NCBI RefSeq assembly: GCF_009467795.1
Contig: NZ_WIAX01000012.1
Location: 62,001 to 126,000 of the forward strand
From: Nesterenkonia halophila
Lineage (GTDB): Bacteria; Actinomycetota; Actinomycetes; Actinomycetales; Micrococcaceae
Direction: 5' to 3'
Length of the DNA: 64,000 nucleotides
A model generated the notes under the pieces. It ran no database searches and was not told the origin of the DNA. It was given only the letters and a program-made list of their open reading frames with translations. The translations under genes were made by a program, and so were the position numbers. Each line of letters opens with the position of its first letter. Within the stretch, counting starts at the first letter, position 1. Below, one piece after another: positions 12,137 through 53,650 of the stretch.

Positions 12137-12180
12137 ACGAACGGGCCCGGCCCCTCCGTGGAGGGACCGGGCCCGTTCGT
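12137..12180. terminator. Bidirectional hairpin between rarA and qcrB
   Basis: ACGAACGGGCCCGG and its complement (12167-12180) form a 14-bp stem, extended by CCCTC/GAGGG around a GTG loop. It lies between the convergent rarA and qcrB stops and can terminate both. No T-run, as is common in high-GC actinobacteria. Confidence 0.75.
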
Positions 12181-18724: not shown

Positions 18725-18779
18725 CACACGACGGCGGGCCCGCCGCGGAGCGTGTCCGCGACGGGCCCGCCGTCGTGTG
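18725..18779 (-). terminator. Terminator of the ctaC-ctaD-ctaF operon
   Basis: An 18-bp perfect stem (arms 18725-18742 and 18762-18779, CACACGACGGCGGGCCCG and complement) is extended by CGCGGA/TCCGCG inside. It sits between ctaF and the def promoter. Confidence 0.8.
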
Positions 18780-27510: not shown

Positions 27511-27556
27511 CTCCCGACTCCGCCCGCATCCGCCCGCCTCCCTCGCCCCGCTCCCC

Positions 27557-27596
27557 GTCCCGGAGGCCGCGCTGCGGCCGGCGCGGCCTCCGGGAC
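27557..27596 (-). terminator. Terminator of leuA
   Basis: A perfect 16-bp stem, GTCCCGGAGGCCGCGC and its complement, with an 8-base loop, 26 bases after the leuA stop. Confidence 0.8.
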
Positions 27597-27621
27597 GACG
27601 GAGCGCGCGGGGCGGAAGGGC

Positions 27622-42243: not shown

Positions 42244-43257
42244 TCAGCGCCCCACGCCGGCGGCGACGACGGCCAGCGCATGCTCGACGGCATACTCCGG
42301 AGTGCGCGAGGCCCCCTTCGCCTCGGCGTCGGCCCGGGCGATCGCCTCCACCGCCGCTCCGGCCCGTGCGGACTGCCAGCGGCGCGCGGTGTCCTGCGCC
42401 TGGCGCAGCTGCCAGGGCGCGGCGCCCAGCGTGGAGGCCAGCGCGTCGGGGCTGCCGCGATGGTCGACCAGCGCGGCGATCTGCCGCCCCTTGCGGGCCA
42501 GCGCGGCGGTGACCGCGATGGGCGAGACGCCGGTGGAGATGGCGTGGCGGTAGAGGCGCACGGCGTCGGCGCCGCGTCCCTCGAAGGCGGCGTCGGCGAC
42601 TTTGAAGGCCGTGGCCTCGACGCGCCCGCCGTGGTACCGGTCGACGTGCTCCTCGGTGACCTCGCCGTCGATGTCCCGGATGAGCTGACGGCACGCCCCG
42701 CCGAGATCGGAGAGCGAGGAGCCGGCCGCGGCGACCAGCGCGCGGGCGGCGTCGGGCTGGATCTCCCGTCCGGCGGCGCGGAACTCGCGGCGCAGGAAGT
42801 CCAGCTTGTCGGCGTCGGTCTTCGCCGCCGAGCAGTCGACGACGACGGCGCGCTTCGCCAGGACATCCAGGAGCTTCTTGCCCCGGTTTCCACCGGTGTG
42901 GCGGAAGACCAGCGTGACGTCGTCGGCGACCTCGTCGAGGTAGGACAGCGCCTCCTGCAGAAAGGCGTCCGAGGTCTGGGCCAGATCCTCGGCGAGGATG
43001 AGGCGGGCCTCGCCGAACAGCGAGGGCGAGGCCAGCGTGGCCAGCGCGCCGGAGGCCGCGGAGCTGACGTCCAGCCGGGTGTACTCCAGATCCGGGTGCT
43101 GGACGCGCAGCTGCTCCTTGACGCGGTCCGTCGCCCGGGTCGCCGCGTAGTCCTCGGGCCCCTTGAGCAGCATCAGCGGCGCCGGCTCGACGGTGCGGAA
43201 GTCGACGCCGGCGGAGCCGGAGGATCGGCGGGAGGACCCGCGCTGCGCTGCTGCCAT
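42244..43257 (-). CDS. holA: DNA polymerase III delta subunit
   Basis: Clamp-loader subunit that opens the beta clamp. The 337-residue protein has the delta-type N-terminal domain (MLLKGPEDYAATRATDRVKEQLR), a DVSSAASGALATLASPSLFGEARLIL segment with the clamp-contact region, and the C-terminal collar (ALARKGRQIAALVDHR). No P-loop, as expected. The ATG at 43257 (MAAAQRGSS) follows a TAGGAT box by seven bases. It precedes rpsT, as in many Gram-positives. Confidence 0.92.
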   Translation of the reverse strand: MAAAQRGSSRRSSGSAGVDFRTVEPAPLMLLKGPEDYAATRATDRVKEQLRVQHPDLEYTRLDVSSAASGALATLASPSLFGEARLILAEDLAQTSDAFLQEALSYLDEVADDVTLVFRHTGGNRGKKLLDVLAKRAVVVDCSAAKTDADKLDFLRREFRAAGREIQPDAARALVAAAGSSLSDLGGACRQLIRDIDGEVTEEHVDRYHGGRVEATAFKVADAAFEGRGADAVRLYRHAISTGVSPIAVTAALARKGRQIAALVDHRGSPDALASTLGAAPWQLRQAQDTARRWQSARAGAAVEAIARADAEAKGASRTPEYAVEHALAVVAAGVGR

Positions 43258-43310: not shown

Positions 43311-43374
43311 GCGATGACTCGGCGGCAACTGTGGGAATGCATCGGCGTTCCCGCACTTTCCGCCGAGTCATCGC
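43311..43374. repeat. Palindromic repeat, copy 1 (also a likely terminator)
   Basis: 30-base arms around ATCG; 26 of 30 pairs plus two wobble pairs. The left arm reads GCGATGACTCGGCGGC, then AACTGTGGGAATGC. It lies between the MaoC gene stop and holA start on the minus strand. The first 28 bases from GATGACTC match copy 2 (52722 on) at 23 positions. Confidence 0.8.
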
Positions 43375-43429: not shown

Positions 43430-44404
43430 TCAGTCGTGCTCGGGCAGCTGCAGCTCGCCGTGGAAGTGCCGACGACGGCGGCGCGCGTCCCAGCCGGTGA
43501 TCCGCGTCCGCCCGGCGCCCAGGTCCTCGGCGGCGACGGCGACCTGCGCCGGCAGCCGGATCGGCGCCTCGAAGGTGATGCGCCAGCGGTGCCCGGCCTC
43601 CTGCGGCTCGCGCCCCTCGAGCATCTTCGCGGCGGCGTGCATCCCGTGGGCGATGGCGCTCGGCATGCCCAGCGCCTTCGCGGTGAGCGCCGAGAGATGG
43701 ATCGGATTGCAGTCCCCCGAGACGGCCGCCCAGGAGCGCCCGGCATCGGCGCCGAACCTCCACGACGCCGTCCGCGGCGGCAGGGCGACGGCGTCGCCGT
43801 CCCGCCGGCCCGATTCCTCGGACGATCCGGCCGCCGGCTCGTCCGGCAGCCGCAGCCCGCGGGCGAGGTAGGTCGAGGTCCCGGTCCAGAGCACGTCCTG
43901 CTCCGCCGGAGCCGCGGGATCGGCCTGCTCCCGCAGCACCTCGGTGACGATGTCGACCTGCACACCCCGTCGGTGCTCGCGCAGATTCTCCGCCCGTGCA
44001 CGGATCTGCAGCGGCTGCTCGACGCCGATCGGCCGCCGATGCTCGACGGCGTTGGACAGGTGGACCAGCCCCATCAGCGGCAGCGGGAACCGACGGTCGG
44101 CCATCAGCGCCACCTGCACCGGGAAGCCCAGCACGTGGACCAGCGCCGAGGGCAGCGACCAGCGGTGCACGCCGTCGAAGGCCTCGCCGCCGACGAGCCG
44201 CCGGTAGGCCTCCGTCGTCGCCGTCGTCGCCCCGGCGGAGCGGGCCGCGAGCGCCTGGTCGGGCAGTGCACCCACTTCGCCGGAGCCGCGCACCGCCCGG
44301 CCGGCGGCGTCGGCGGCGGCGCGGGCATAGAGGCCGGCCAGCGACGGCATCTCGATCCGGCGGAGGTCGGCGACGACGGGTGCCGGTGAGAACGTCTCGG
44401 ACAT
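43430..44404 (-). CDS. MaoC-type (R)-enoyl-CoA/ACP hydratase
   Basis: Double hot-dog dehydratase of 324 residues. The C-terminal hot-dog carries the hydratase-2 motif SGDCNPIHLSALTAKALGMP then SAIAHGMHA with the catalytic Asp/His. The N-terminal half is a degenerate hot-dog. Relatives include mycobacterial HtdX, encoded beside fabG4 and fadA2, the same neighbourhood as here. ATG 44404 with GAGGAGG upstream, 11 bases after the fabG stop. Likely hydrates enoyl-CoA in the beta-oxidation set. Confidence 0.9.
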   Translation of the reverse strand: MSETFSPAPVVADLRRIEMPSLAGLYARAAADAAGRAVRGSGEVGALPDQALAARSAGATTATTEAYRRLVGGEAFDGVHRWSLPSALVHVLGFPVQVALMADRRFPLPLMGLVHLSNAVEHRRPIGVEQPLQIRARAENLREHRRGVQVDIVTEVLREQADPAAPAEQDVLWTGTSTYLARGLRLPDEPAAGSSEESGRRDGDAVALPPRTASWRFGADAGRSWAAVSGDCNPIHLSALTAKALGMPSAIAHGMHAAAKMLEGREPQEAGHRWRITFEAPIRLPAQVAVAAEDLGAGRTRITGWDARRRRRHFHGELQLPEHD

Positions 44405-49982: not shown

Positions 49983-52709
49983 ATGACATCGTCCGCATAC
50001 CCCGTCCCCTCGTCCTCTCCGGCGCCGGCGCCGGCCGTCGACCGGTCCGACGTCGAGAACCTCACCCGCGAGGAGGCCGCCGCCCGTGCCGGACACCTGC
50101 AGGTCACCTCCTGCACCGTCGACGTCGACCTGCGCGACGCCGCCGCCGCGGGGCAGACCACCTACCCGGTGCGCACCCGGATCTCCTTCACCTCCTCGAC
50201 GCCCGGCGCCGAGACCTTCCTGGACTACCTGGGGTCCTCGGTCGAGTCGGTGGTGCTCAACGGCGAGACGCTCGACGTCGCCGAGCACGCCGGCGCCGCC
50301 CGCATCCGCCTGCCGCGGCTGCAGGAGCAGAACGAGGTCGAACTGCACACCACCTCGGTCTACTCGCGCTCCGGCGAGGGGCTGCACCGCTTCGTCGACC
50401 CGACCGACGGGCAGGTCTACCTCTACACCCAGTACGAGCCGGCCGACTCCCGCCGCGTCTTCCCGGTCTTCGAGCAGCCGGATCTGAAGACCCGCTTCCG
50501 GATCAGCATCACCGGCCCGGACACCTGGCAGCTGCGCTCCAACGGCGCCGCCGTCTCGCGCACCCCGGTCGAGGGCGCCGCACGAGGCCTCGACGCCGGG
50601 CTGGTCCGCGTCGAGTTCGCCGAGACCCCGGTGATGTCCAGCTACATCACCGCGCTGCTGGCCGGCCCGTACCACTGCGTCGAGTCGACCTGGCGCGGCG
50701 GCGTCGCCGACGGCGAGGAGTTCGACATCCCCCTGGCGCTGCTCTGCCGGGCCTCGCTGGCCGAGCACCTCGACGCCGAGGAGCTCTTCGACCTCACCCG
50801 CCGCGGTCTGGACTTCTTCCACGCCGAGTTCGCCCACCCCTACCCCTGGGGCGCCTATGACCAGGCCTTCGTCCCCGAGTACAACCTCGGCGCCATGGAG
50901 AATCCGGGCCTGGTGACCTTCACCGAGAAGCATGTCTTCGACACCGCCGCCACCGACGCCCAGCACGAGACGCGGGCGAACACGCTGATGCACGAGATGG
51001 CCCACATGTGGTTCGGCGACCTGGTCACCCCGCAGTGGTGGGACGACCTCTGGCTCAAGGAGTCCTTCGCCGACTACATGGGCGCGCTGGCGGTCGACGA
51101 GGCCACCGGCTTCACCACCTCATGGATCTCCTTCGCCAACGGCCGGAAGGCCTGGGCCTACGTGCAGGACCAGCTGCCGACCACCCATCCGATCGTCGCC
51201 GACATCGCCGATCTGGAGGCCGCCGACCAGAACTTCGACGGCATCACCTACGCCAAGGGCGCCAGCGTGCTCAAGCAGCTGGCCGCCACCGTCGGCCGCG
51301 AGGCCTTCCGCACCGCCGCCCGCCGGTACTTCTCGCGGCATGCCTTCGGCAACGCCACGCTGCAGGACTTCCTGGCGGTGCTCGAGGAAGTCTCGGGCGA
51401 GGACATGGGCCGGTGGGCGCAGGCCTGGCTGCAGACCGCCGGCGTGCCGGAGCTGGCCGCCGACGTCGAAGGCTCCGGCACGCCGCAGCGGCACGTGCTG
51501 GTGACCCAGACCGGCCTCGATCCGGCCACTGAGCGGCCGGTCTCCCGGCCGCACCGCATCCGCTGCGCCGTCCATGCCCTCGATGCGGACTCCGGAGAGC
51601 TGCGCCGCGCCGACGTCGCCGACGTCCGGCTGTCCCCCGAGGACCCGGCCGGGCGCGTCGTCGTCGAGGATCTGCAGCTGCCGGCCGAGGGCACCCCGCG
51701 GCTGCTGCTGCCCAACGAGGACGACCTGACCTACGCGAAGCTGCGGCTCGACGCCGAGTCCACCGCCGCCGTGCTCACCCACCCGGTGGCCGACCCGCTG
51801 GCCCGGGCGACGGTGTGGGCGGCACTGTGGTCGATGGTCCGCGACGGCGAGCTGCCCGCCCGCCGCTTCGTCGAGGCGGTCATGGAGCTCGGCCTGCAGA
51901 TCACCGAGGTCGGCGTGGTCCAGAGCCTGCTGCGTCAGGCCGACCGGGCACTGCAGGCCTATGTCCCGGCCGAGGAGCGCGAGGCTCTGCAGGCCCGCTT
52001 CGCCGACCGGCTCGCCGGCCATCTGGCCGAGGAGGCCGGGGGCGACCGCCAGCGCGCCGCCGCGCGCACGCTGGCGACGGTCTCCCGGCGGACGGACGCG
52101 CAGCTGGACCTGCTGGCCGCGCTGCTCGACGGCGACGCCGTCGGCCGCGGGATCGAGGGCCTGGAGGTCGACGAGGAGCTGCGCTGGGCCTTCCTGCAGG
52201 CGCTGACGGTCCACGGGCGCACCGAGGCCGCGCAGCTGGACGCCGAGCTGGAGTCCCGCACCACGGCTCGCGGCCGCGTCGCCCACCGACTGGCGCTGTC
52301 CGCCCGCCCGCACGCAGTGGTCAAGGAGAACGCGCTGGAGCAGGCTATCAGCGGGATCGACGAGGACGGCGAGGAGCTGTCCAACGACCACCTCACCGCC
52401 ACTGTCGACGGCTTCTGCTGCGGCCCGCCGTCGCTGATCGAGGTCCACGACGCGACGTACTTCGCCGCGCTGGAGGACGTCTGGCGGCGGATGAGCCAGG
52501 GCCAGGCCACCCGGGTGGTCTCCGGGCTCTTCCCCGGAGCCCGGGATCTGGCCGAGGGCCAGCAGCCCGAGGAGCATCCCACGGCCCGGCAGGTCGCGGC
52601 CTGGCTGGCGGAGCATCCGCAGGCCCCGGCGGCGCTGCGCCGCATCCTGCGCGAGGAGCAGGACCACCTGCTGCGCGGGCTGCGCGCGCAGCAGGCCGCC
52701 CGCAGCTGA
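49983..52709 (+). CDS. pepN: Aminopeptidase N (M1 family)
   Basis: Zinc metallo-aminopeptidase of 908 residues. N-terminal beta domain, then the substrate motif GAMENPGLVTF and zinc motif HEMAHMWFGD...WLKESFADYMG (HExxH-18-E). The ERAP1-like C-terminal helical domain fills residues ~540-900. No signal peptide, so cytosolic. The ATG at 49983 (MTSSAYPVPSS) is chosen because GAGAGG lies seven bases upstream; ATGs at 49968 and 49977 precede or overlap that site. Convergent with tatC across a palindromic repeat. Confidence 0.96.
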   Translation: MTSSAYPVPSSSPAPAPAVDRSDVENLTREEAAARAGHLQVTSCTVDVDLRDAAAAGQTTYPVRTRISFTSSTPGAETFLDYLGSSVESVVLNGETLDVAEHAGAARIRLPRLQEQNEVELHTTSVYSRSGEGLHRFVDPTDGQVYLYTQYEPADSRRVFPVFEQPDLKTRFRISITGPDTWQLRSNGAAVSRTPVEGAARGLDAGLVRVEFAETPVMSSYITALLAGPYHCVESTWRGGVADGEEFDIPLALLCRASLAEHLDAEELFDLTRRGLDFFHAEFAHPYPWGAYDQAFVPEYNLGAMENPGLVTFTEKHVFDTAATDAQHETRANTLMHEMAHMWFGDLVTPQWWDDLWLKESFADYMGALAVDEATGFTTSWISFANGRKAWAYVQDQLPTTHPIVADIADLEAADQNFDGITYAKGASVLKQLAATVGREAFRTAARRYFSRHAFGNATLQDFLAVLEEVSGEDMGRWAQAWLQTAGVPELAADVEGSGTPQRHVLVTQTGLDPATERPVSRPHRIRCAVHALDADSGELRRADVADVRLSPEDPAGRVVVEDLQLPAEGTPRLLLPNEDDLTYAKLRLDAESTAAVLTHPVADPLARATVWAALWSMVRDGELPARRFVEAVMELGLQITEVGVVQSLLRQADRALQAYVPAEEREALQARFADRLAGHLAEEAGGDRQRAAARTLATVSRRTDAQLDLLAALLDGDAVGRGIEGLEVDEELRWAFLQALTVHGRTEAAQLDAELESRTTARGRVAHRLALSARPHAVVKENALEQAISGIDEDGEELSNDHLTATVDGFCCGPPSLIEVHDATYFAALEDVWRRMSQGQATRVVSGLFPGARDLAEGQQPEEHPTARQVAAWLAEHPQAPAALRRILREEQDHLLRGLRAQQAARS

Positions 52710-52720
52710 GCCCGCCGCAC

Positions 52721-52782
52721 GGATGACTCCGCGGCTCGGGTGGGAATGCGGTCATATTCCCACCCGAGCCGCGGAGTCATCC
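52721..52782. repeat. Palindromic repeat, copy 2 (also a likely bidirectional terminator)
   Basis: 27-bp perfect stem: left arm 52721-52747 starts GGATGACTCCGCGGC and ends GTGGGAAT; right arm 52756-52782; 8-base loop. It lies between convergent pepN and tatC. It shares the outer GATGACTC, inner GCGGC and tip GTGGGAATGC with copy 1 at 43311. Confidence 0.85.
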
Positions 52783-52801: not shown

Positions 52802-53650
52802 TCAGACCTCGCCGGGGTCGTCGATGAGTGCCTCGTTGGCCTGCTCCCGCTCCTGGTCGCGACGCGCCCGGCGCTTGTCGTTGATCAGGCAGAGCACGAT
52901 GGCCACGGCGAAGAGGACCACCAGCGGCCCGGCGATGAAGAACATCGACACCGCGTCGCCGCCGGGCGCGGCCAGCGCCGACATCAGCGCGATGAGCATC
53001 ACCGTGCCGCGCCAGCTCTGCAGCACCCGCTTGCCGCTGACCAGGCCCATCATGTTCACCCCGACCAGCACGACCGGGAGGATCATCGCCACGCCGAAGG
53101 CCAGGAAGAGGTGGATGACGAAGGTGAAGTACACGTCCGGGGCGATGATGTTCGACGTGCCCTCGGGGTTCAGCGTGAAGAAGAAGCGGATGGCCCGCGG
53201 CAGCACCACATAGGCCAGCCAGATGCCGCCCAGGAACAGCGGCACGGAGACGGCCAGGAAGCTCAGCGCATAGCGCTTCTCGCGCTTCTTCAGCCCGGGC
53301 ATGATGAAAGCCCAGATCTGGTAGAGCCACATCGGCGCCGAGATCACGATCCCCACGAACAGCGAGATGCGGATCATCAGGTCGAGCGGCTGCCCGACAG
53401 TGTTGAAGGCGATCTCCGTGGTGCGGTCGACGTCGTCATAGCCGAGCACCGGGGCGGTGAGGACCTGGAAGATCTGGTCGTACAGGATGATGCCCGCGAC
53501 CGCGCCCAGCACGATGCCGGCGGCGGCGAGGACGAGCCGCTTCCGGAGCTCGCGCAGATGCTCCTTCAGCGGCATCCGTCCCTCGGGGTCGCGGCGACGC
53601 GGCCGACGACGGCCGGTGGAGCGGGGATCGCCGGTCTGCGTCCTCGCCAT
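52802..53650 (-). CDS. tatC: Sec-independent protein translocase TatC
   Basis: Twin-arginine signal receptor in the membrane. MPLKEHLRELRKRL is the TatC start motif, followed by six membrane helices; the loop FIMPGLKKREKRY and FGVAMILPVVLVGVNMMGL are typical. 282 residues with ~25 basic residues before the motif and a charged tail. GTG or ATG start (reads MARTQTGD); five bases after tatA stop. End of the pafBC-tatA-tatC region. Confidence 0.96.
   Translation of the reverse strand: MARTQTGDPRSTGRRRPRRRDPEGRMPLKEHLRELRKRLVLAAAGIVLGAVAGIILYDQIFQVLTAPVLGYDDVDRTTEIAFNTVGQPLDLMIRISLFVGIVISAPMWLYQIWAFIMPGLKKREKRYALSFLAVSVPLFLGGIWLAYVVLPRAIRFFFTLNPEGTSNIIAPDVYFTFVIHLFLAFGVAMILPVVLVGVNMMGLVSGKRVLQSWRGTVMLIALMSALAAPGGDAVSMFFIAGPLVVLFAVAIVLCLINDKRRARRDQEREQANEALIDDPGEV

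Follow-up and report, generated by a model that had tools for sequence, protein, structure and literature searches.

REP elements, including the REPs and REPINs associated with a RAYT (the GTAG super-family), are dispersed palindromes that occupy convergent and tandem gaps, for the most part behind genes, and some of their families are species-specific, according to the cited parts of two studies (PMC3733652, PMC3116915); the two palindrome families of Nesterenkonia considered here, F1 and F2, are likewise dispersed and mostly situated behind genes. However, REPs and REPINs are 20-40 bp long, carry an unpaired GTAG tag and come with a RAYT, whereas F1 and F2 are symmetric, untagged palindromes of 60-70 bp, occurring in tens of copies with no Y1_Tnp gene in the carriers tested. 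The CGTC-tagged REPs, including the Rickettsia RPE, are palindromic families without a dedicated transposase, tagged at one end and found predominantly in alpha-Proteobacteria, as stated in the cited section of PMC3733652. On that description, F1 and F2 resemble them as palindromic families for which no dedicated transposase was found, but are untagged and reside in Nesterenkonia. MITEs are short, contain inverted repeats and are present or absent at individual sites. The same holds for F1 and F2; in the one clean pair no target duplication was seen, and no partner transposon end was found among the half-sites of the N. halophila draft. DNA uptake signals occur in hundreds of copies, also singly, and paired uptake sequences are used as terminators in Neisseria (DUS) and H. 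influenzae (USS). A fixed uptake word (USS; 9 bases, ~1300 copies) occurs as inverted pairs at gene 3' ends, as described for H. influenzae and A. pleuropneumoniae in the cited part of PMC5217627. F1 resembles these paired uptake sequences in forming inverted pairs at gene 3' ends, but consists of long palindromes in much smaller numbers (32 and 63 copies in two species), with no single copies in N. halophila. Titles and abstract starts of open-licence PMC articles yielded no description of F1, F2 or a third family, F3, in Nesterenkonia.

The window analysed here is a stretch of 64,000 nt from the Nesterenkonia halophila contig NZ_WIAX01000012.1; the draft genome it belongs to (G000) comprises 2.19 Mb and is 65.5% complete. 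The first-pass annotation had pointed out two related palindromes sharing 23 of 28 left-arm positions, and we confirmed both the places and the number of shared positions, the 60-bp cores being situated at 43313-43372 (copy 1; G000:C23:105313-105372) and 52722-52781 (copy 2; G000:C23:114722-114781). Copy 1 has arms of 28 nt, matching at 24 positions and not matching at four, and a loop of 4 nt; it scores 72.3 bits on the + strand against the F1 covariance model (R1) and, with a few flanking bases, folds as RNA at -53.2 kcal/mol on the + strand (z -10.5 versus shuffles) and -46.7 kcal/mol on the - strand. In copy 2, 26 of the 28 arm positions match, the two mismatches adjoining the loop, and 27 perfect pairs are formed if the next outer pair is included; the RNA fold with a few flanking bases is -61.8 kcal/mol (+ strand, z -11.3), a second value being -61.4 kcal/mol. 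Copy 2 lies 12 bp past the stop of a pepN-type aminopeptidase gene (49983-52709, + strand; Pfam Peptidase_M1 and ERAP1_C) and 20 bp past the stop of the convergent tatC (52802-53575, - strand; PF00902). Copy 1 is located between two - strand genes, 57 bp past the 3' end of a MaoC-domain gene (43430-44404; PF01575) and 55 bp before holA, encoding DNA polymerase III delta (42244-43257; PF06144, PF21694). Here and below, gene ends and orientations are those of the script-based gene caller of the present analysis. Three other long palindromes in the window (18725-18779, 12137-12180 and 27556-27597) have no visible likeness to F1.

The half-site pattern, with at most three mismatches, has 4 matches in the window (maximum in 100 shuffles, 0). 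The genome-wide half-site search proposed in the annotation produced 49 half-sites in the draft, the reversed-pattern control producing none. A covariance model built from 22 copies revealed at least 32 elements in N. halophila (64 strand-wise matches) and at least 63 in Nesterenkonia sp. F (G024; 126 matches, down to ~31 bits), so that the dispersed family is larger than had been claimed; both counts are lower bounds, as 150 first-look candidates were scored in each genome (of 1744 candidates in N. halophila). As regards an autonomous partner with F1 ends, all 49 half-sites of the incomplete N. halophila genome fell within the 32 palindromes (lists compared by eye), leaving no solo arms. The length is nearly constant: 30 of the 32 N. 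halophila copies are exactly 60 bp and two are 62 bp long, and over both genomes 93 of 95 copies are 60 bp long, again with two of 62 bp.

The conservation in relatives that had been expected is real but odd: of the other species examined, a single one has F1 in multiple copies, and further congeners have a family unrelated to it, situated partly at the gene ends that carry F1. A search of named genomes with the exact F1 pattern, possibly without those closest to the window's own record, matched 18 stretches, all of them in Nesterenkonia sp. F. Half-sites with at most two mismatches occurred in 8 of 58 genomes, more than one only in N. halophila and Nesterenkonia sp. F, and no other genome examined has multi-copy F1. 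A scan of 295 genomes with the F1 model (18 candidates scored in each; Nesterenkonia sp. F was apparently not drawn) matched 29 at E <=0.01, with a best score outside N. halophila of 51.3 bits and at most 6 strand-wise matches per genome. Most of the nine loci inspected were perfect palindromes of other sequence, which score anyway because a model with 28 pairs rewards pairing. A weak match in G023 (L171:1501-1570), with the ends GATGACTCTGC/GCAGAGTCATC, could from its sequence be a diverged F1 relative.

The F1 arm has the approximate consensus GATGACTCNGYGGNANGTGTGGGAAWG, the outer and inner blocks being nearly invariant. The module is symmetric, with a conserved outer block GATGACTCNGYGG, an inner block GTGGGAAW and a variable middle that largely matches itself. 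The annotation's remark that the variable middle bases pair within a copy extends to the family, since the arms match far above chance at many variable positions: within-copy agreement exceeded all 2000 shuffles at positions 6, 9, 11 and 14-18 (8 of the 15 tested) and all but 4 at position 7. There was no clear excess at positions 2, 5, 20, 26, 27 and 28, position 26 even showing a slight deficit (p 0.047). The F1 results come from two genomes, one of them 65.5% complete. Outside the element, the 12 preceding bases are rich in C and the 12 following ones rich in G (46-64% G from base 4 on, sides pooled), as if weakly extending the stem.

Most copies are located at gene 3' ends, in agreement with the annotation: the 95 elements of the two genomes comprise 46 in convergent, 35 in tandem and 14 in divergent gaps, compared with 7 convergent and 7 divergent gaps among the 53 gene gaps of the window. 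The median distance to the stop of genes ending there is 25 bp (quartiles 16-35, n = 127). The spread over N. halophila is uneven, with 8 copies in 138 kb of contig C11 and none in 594 kb of 19 contigs, where 8.7 would be expected (simulated p 0.0012; contigs unordered). The sites tend to be shared: 22 of the 32 N. halophila sites have both flanking genes in common with an F1 site of Nesterenkonia sp. F, 7 have one and 3 none.

The second family was first met at the pepN 3' end of G015, as a palindrome different from F1. At this gene end F1 is found in the window and in Nesterenkonia sp. F, and F2 in G011, G015, G020, G010 and G017. F2 is 70 bp long, has an asymmetric centre and is unrelated to F1. 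Half-sites of the F2 arm (at most three mismatches, 30 congeners) are numerous in G011 (32), G015 (22), G020 (18) and G010 (16), rare in G017 (4), G027 (2) and G018 (1) and absent from 23 congeners; the F2 model (R2, 150 candidates scored per genome) detected 17, 12, 10 and 8 elements in the first four genomes, 2 in G017 and one each in G021 and G027. Grouping 45 of the 47 elements of these four congeners by flanking genes gave 19 sites, 15 of them common to at least two genomes. Divergent gaps contain 7 of the 45 F2 copies. The two families differ in arm covariation: for F2 it did not stand out clearly from shuffles (pairing 95/500, covariation score 63/500), hence selection on pairing of its variable bases is unsupported. 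In a tree of the PepN protein (one gene), the F2-rich genomes are interleaved with the F2-poor relatives G018, G021, G022 and G027, and a palindrome scan of 220 kb of G022 showed no repeated family. In G011 and G020, pepN and its F2 copy are separated from tatC by a 357-aa gene (L189:1774-2847, L206:1806-2879; ATPgrasp_ST by Pfam in G011); in G018 and G021, as read, pepN is directly beside tatC.

F1 and F2 in part occupy the same gene ends. Seventeen gene families were present in both sets of fetched loci; six of the seven with F2 behind them also have F1, compared with none of the other ten (Fisher p 0.0006, an optimistic value, since the fetched loci are centred on elements, and the overlap shows matches falling centre on centre). 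One divergent gap (G024 C50:31482) is shared, by one flanking gene, with G011 and G020. The F2 model also found three copies of F3 in Nesterenkonia sp. F. By pattern, F3 occurs at ~8 places there, at 3 in N. halophila and at one each in G011, G021, G015 and G010, the matches in G015 and G010 not being palindromic; by eye it is colinear with F2, and RTGT at arm positions 17-20, seen by eye in both F1 and F2/F3, may hint at a common descent. The F3 singletons of G011 (L238) and G021 (L241) have an A-run before and a T-run after them, and from their sequence look like the only members resembling classical two-way intrinsic terminators. Another palindrome of Nesterenkonia sp. F (L251:88-155), related to F3 by eye, suggests further subfamilies.

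In both F1 and F2 the sites are conserved and the sequences are not, the turnover being faster than at synonymous sites. Twenty orthologous F1 pairs of N. halophila and Nesterenkonia sp. F (excluding matches by one flank only and the two sites of 62 bp) were identical at 46.9/60 positions, compared with 45.1/60 for random cross pairs. At variable columns they retained 0.10 of ancestral identity (95% CI -0.03 to 0.23), versus 0.68 at four-fold sites (19,125 sites from 106 gene pairs) and 0.31 in the 40-bp flanks; four-fold sites at 72% G+C may be slower than neutral DNA, and the flanks provide a fairer, weaker contrast. Partner shuffling detected a small residue of common descent (p 0.0046). 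For F2, with 3 to 10 element pairs per species pair, retention was -0.07 to 0.09 versus 0.34-0.50 for the comparison in five of six species pairs, and 0.52 versus 0.66 in the closest. Among the stem pairs of orthologous F1 copies, 56 had changed on both sides and 84 on one, a ratio given without a null model; changes of both arms fit copy replacement or arm-to-arm copying. Besides the operon-bracketing pairs described below there are no near-identical copies (next best 54/60 in N. halophila, best 56/60 in Nesterenkonia sp. F), which argues against frequent whole-element gene conversion.

Single copies may be present in one species and absent from another, four such pairs having been found. G010 has F2 between pepN and tatC and G027 does not; the remainder is alignable, the difference is ~74 bases (70 + 4), and no target duplication is visible. 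F2 behind a 565-aa gene is present in G011 and absent from G017, with boundaries roughly at the element edges. At the counterpart of a full F1 copy of Nesterenkonia sp. F (C10:6535), N. halophila keeps ~10 bases resembling the start of the left arm, and this remnant suggests loss of a copy. Conversely, Nesterenkonia sp. F is without the 127 bp that contain the N. halophila copy at C29:5044. With respect to target duplication, the pairs other than G010/G027 are too diverged, contain a remnant or involve a longer indel. At a candidate third shared site (G024 C49:1790), the flanks are too different from those of N. halophila to be read.

Two operons are bracketed by duplicate copies. On contig C11 of N. 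halophila (L258, G000:C11:51100-60900), a 9.5-kb operon with a TRAP transporter, sugar-acid catabolism and a GntR-type regulator (two genes named by Pfam, the others from reading the proteins) lies between two F1 copies alike at 58/60 positions, the best pair in the genome; in Nesterenkonia sp. F the outer genes of this site adjoin a single F1 copy and the operon is absent from the junction. In G010 (C1; L214:3001-9904), a 6.8-kb glycosidase (GH31)/LacI/transport operon (Pfam for two genes) lies between two F2 copies alike at 67/70, with further matching bases outside them (~8 left, 6 right); at its place G015 has a single F2 copy and no operon. The bracketing ends of both operons share little beyond the element. 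Either direction would fit: an operon gained through recombination at a palindrome, or one lost when two copies recombined. Also on C11, a third bracket encloses 1.5 kb between dissimilar copies (43/60), with no clear gene inside, and a plasmid search with the 9.5-kb operon found nothing at near identity.

We give an even chance to the explanation that the palindromes are REP-like repeats without a RAYT that are maintained as hairpins at gene 3' ends, undergo replacement in situ and provide joints for recombination. It starts from direct observations (the F1 family and its sites, the fast turnover, the presence or absence of copies, the bracketing of the two operons), and from these we infer a 3'-end function, a replacing mechanism and a trans-acting factor. 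The window palindromes would belong to a lineage-specific family, and the cell would maintain strong hairpins at the 3' ends of a restricted number of genes, where they would most likely act as 3' boundaries in both directions, by protection of RNA 3' ends or by termination without a U-tract. A spreading process would set the sequence of each site, replacing copies in situ with F1, F2 or F3 depending on the lineage, either through ectopic recombination or gene conversion, or through loss and re-insertion, and recombination at copies would gain or lose whole operons. Three features point towards a 3'-end role: the location is conserved, the hairpins are strong, and the asymmetric centre of F2 faces the sense direction in 16 of 18 tandem copies (one by a tied call); such a role is, however, unfit for the 14 of 95 F1 copies and 7 of 45 F2 copies between divergent genes.

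REP-like character, as proposed in the annotation, is retained in the distribution, the palindromes being extragenic and mainly behind genes, but not in the partner enzyme. The RAYT/IS200 domain (Y1_Tnp, PF01797), which the annotation had suggested looking for, was found in none of the seven carriers with at least two F1 or F2 copies (G000, at 65.5% completeness, G010, G011, G015, G017, G020 and G024), while 5 of 14 control genomes matched. An unpaired GTAG or CGTC end tag was seen neither in the pooled table of flanking bases nor by eye in the listed elements. The absence of a RAYT argues against membership in the REP/RAYT system, not against a REP-like way of life; for the CGTC-type repeats without a RAYT, too, no dedicated enzyme is known according to the cited part of PMC3733652.

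If, alternatively, the palindromes were sequence-conserved terminators, that is, hairpins without a U-tract that are read by RNA polymerase or a factor and have no mobility, their placement behind stops, their very stable folds and the sense orientation of F2 (by site, 6 unanimous and 2 mixed) would be expected. A classical terminator is not supported: no T-run follows the F1 stem (T at 4-23% at each of 12 bases, both sides pooled), and a scan for G+C-rich stems with a T-run found neither window copy. Nor, in tandem copies read along the sense strand, are G-U mismatches significantly commoner than A-C ones (F1, 42 vs 38, p 0.74; F2, 15 vs 9, p 0.31), and F1, oriented by position 26, has 10 sense and 8 antisense copies among 35 tandem ones (17 unassigned), hence the sense bias of F2 has no counterpart in F1. 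Together with the divergent sites, these results argue against a plain terminator. Moreover, 32 copies per 2.19 Mb are too few for most gene ends, and neither turnover beyond that of synonymous sites nor presence or absence of whole copies agrees with immobile terminators, so that we regard this alternative as unlikely. As signs of a 3'-end role are present, and those of a plain terminator and of a RAYT are missing, we adopted kept places with exchangeable palindromes.

The palindromes might also be docking sites of an undescribed recombination system in Nesterenkonia, at which incoming operons join or leave at gene ends with duplication of the site in an attL/attR-like manner, the recognition sequence (F1, F2 or F3) being lineage-specific and the places constant; we consider this quite unlikely. 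Integron attC sites have the ends GTTRRRY/RYYYAAC, and by eye these are in neither F1 nor F2. Rfam at the gathering score had no match in the window or in six loci.

Just as doubtful, in our view, is an origin as non-autonomous transposable elements, i.e. minimal double inverted repeats that some unrecognised transposase would carry to a few strongly preferred gene ends, where shared sites would reflect repeated insertion. The presence or absence of whole elements, the sites common to F1 and F2 and the differing orientation of F2 between species at two shared sites would fit. However, no target duplication is visible at G010/G027, the apparent arm remnant at one empty site means that at least some differences are losses, no solo arms were seen in the N. 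halophila draft, and the seven carriers searched gave no Y1_Tnp match. Viral contigs contained no exact F1 pattern, and plasmids gave 9 weak partial F1 matches, none convincing (best E 0.2), and no matches to F2 or F3.

Slightly less probable still are chromosome-organising or nucleoid-protein sites (matS- or parS-like), where a dimeric protein would read the conserved blocks and the hairpin would be incidental. This would account for conserved blocks on both arms, for F2 variable bases without clear covariation and for the uneven spread over the (unordered) contigs, but the F1 middle bases, hardly read by a protein, match between the arms, and the sister species of F2 carriers have either no copy or a single one. 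It is very improbable that the palindromes are DNA-uptake signals arranged in hairpin pairs, their dialects differing by lineage as in Neisseriaceae: lineage-specific sequences at shared gene ends do resemble a dialect change, but the copies number tens rather than hundreds, none stands alone outside palindromes in N. halophila, and an uptake word of 60-70 bp would be a long one.

For the reading as REP-like repeats kept as 3'-end hairpins, the related Nesterenkonia constitute a natural experiment, in which in part the same gene ends have different palindrome families, sites are filled or empty, and operons are framed by copies. Two propositions are thereby directly testable: that gene-end hairpins may be selected places filled by whichever repeat is active, and that they may serve as joints for the exchange of operons.
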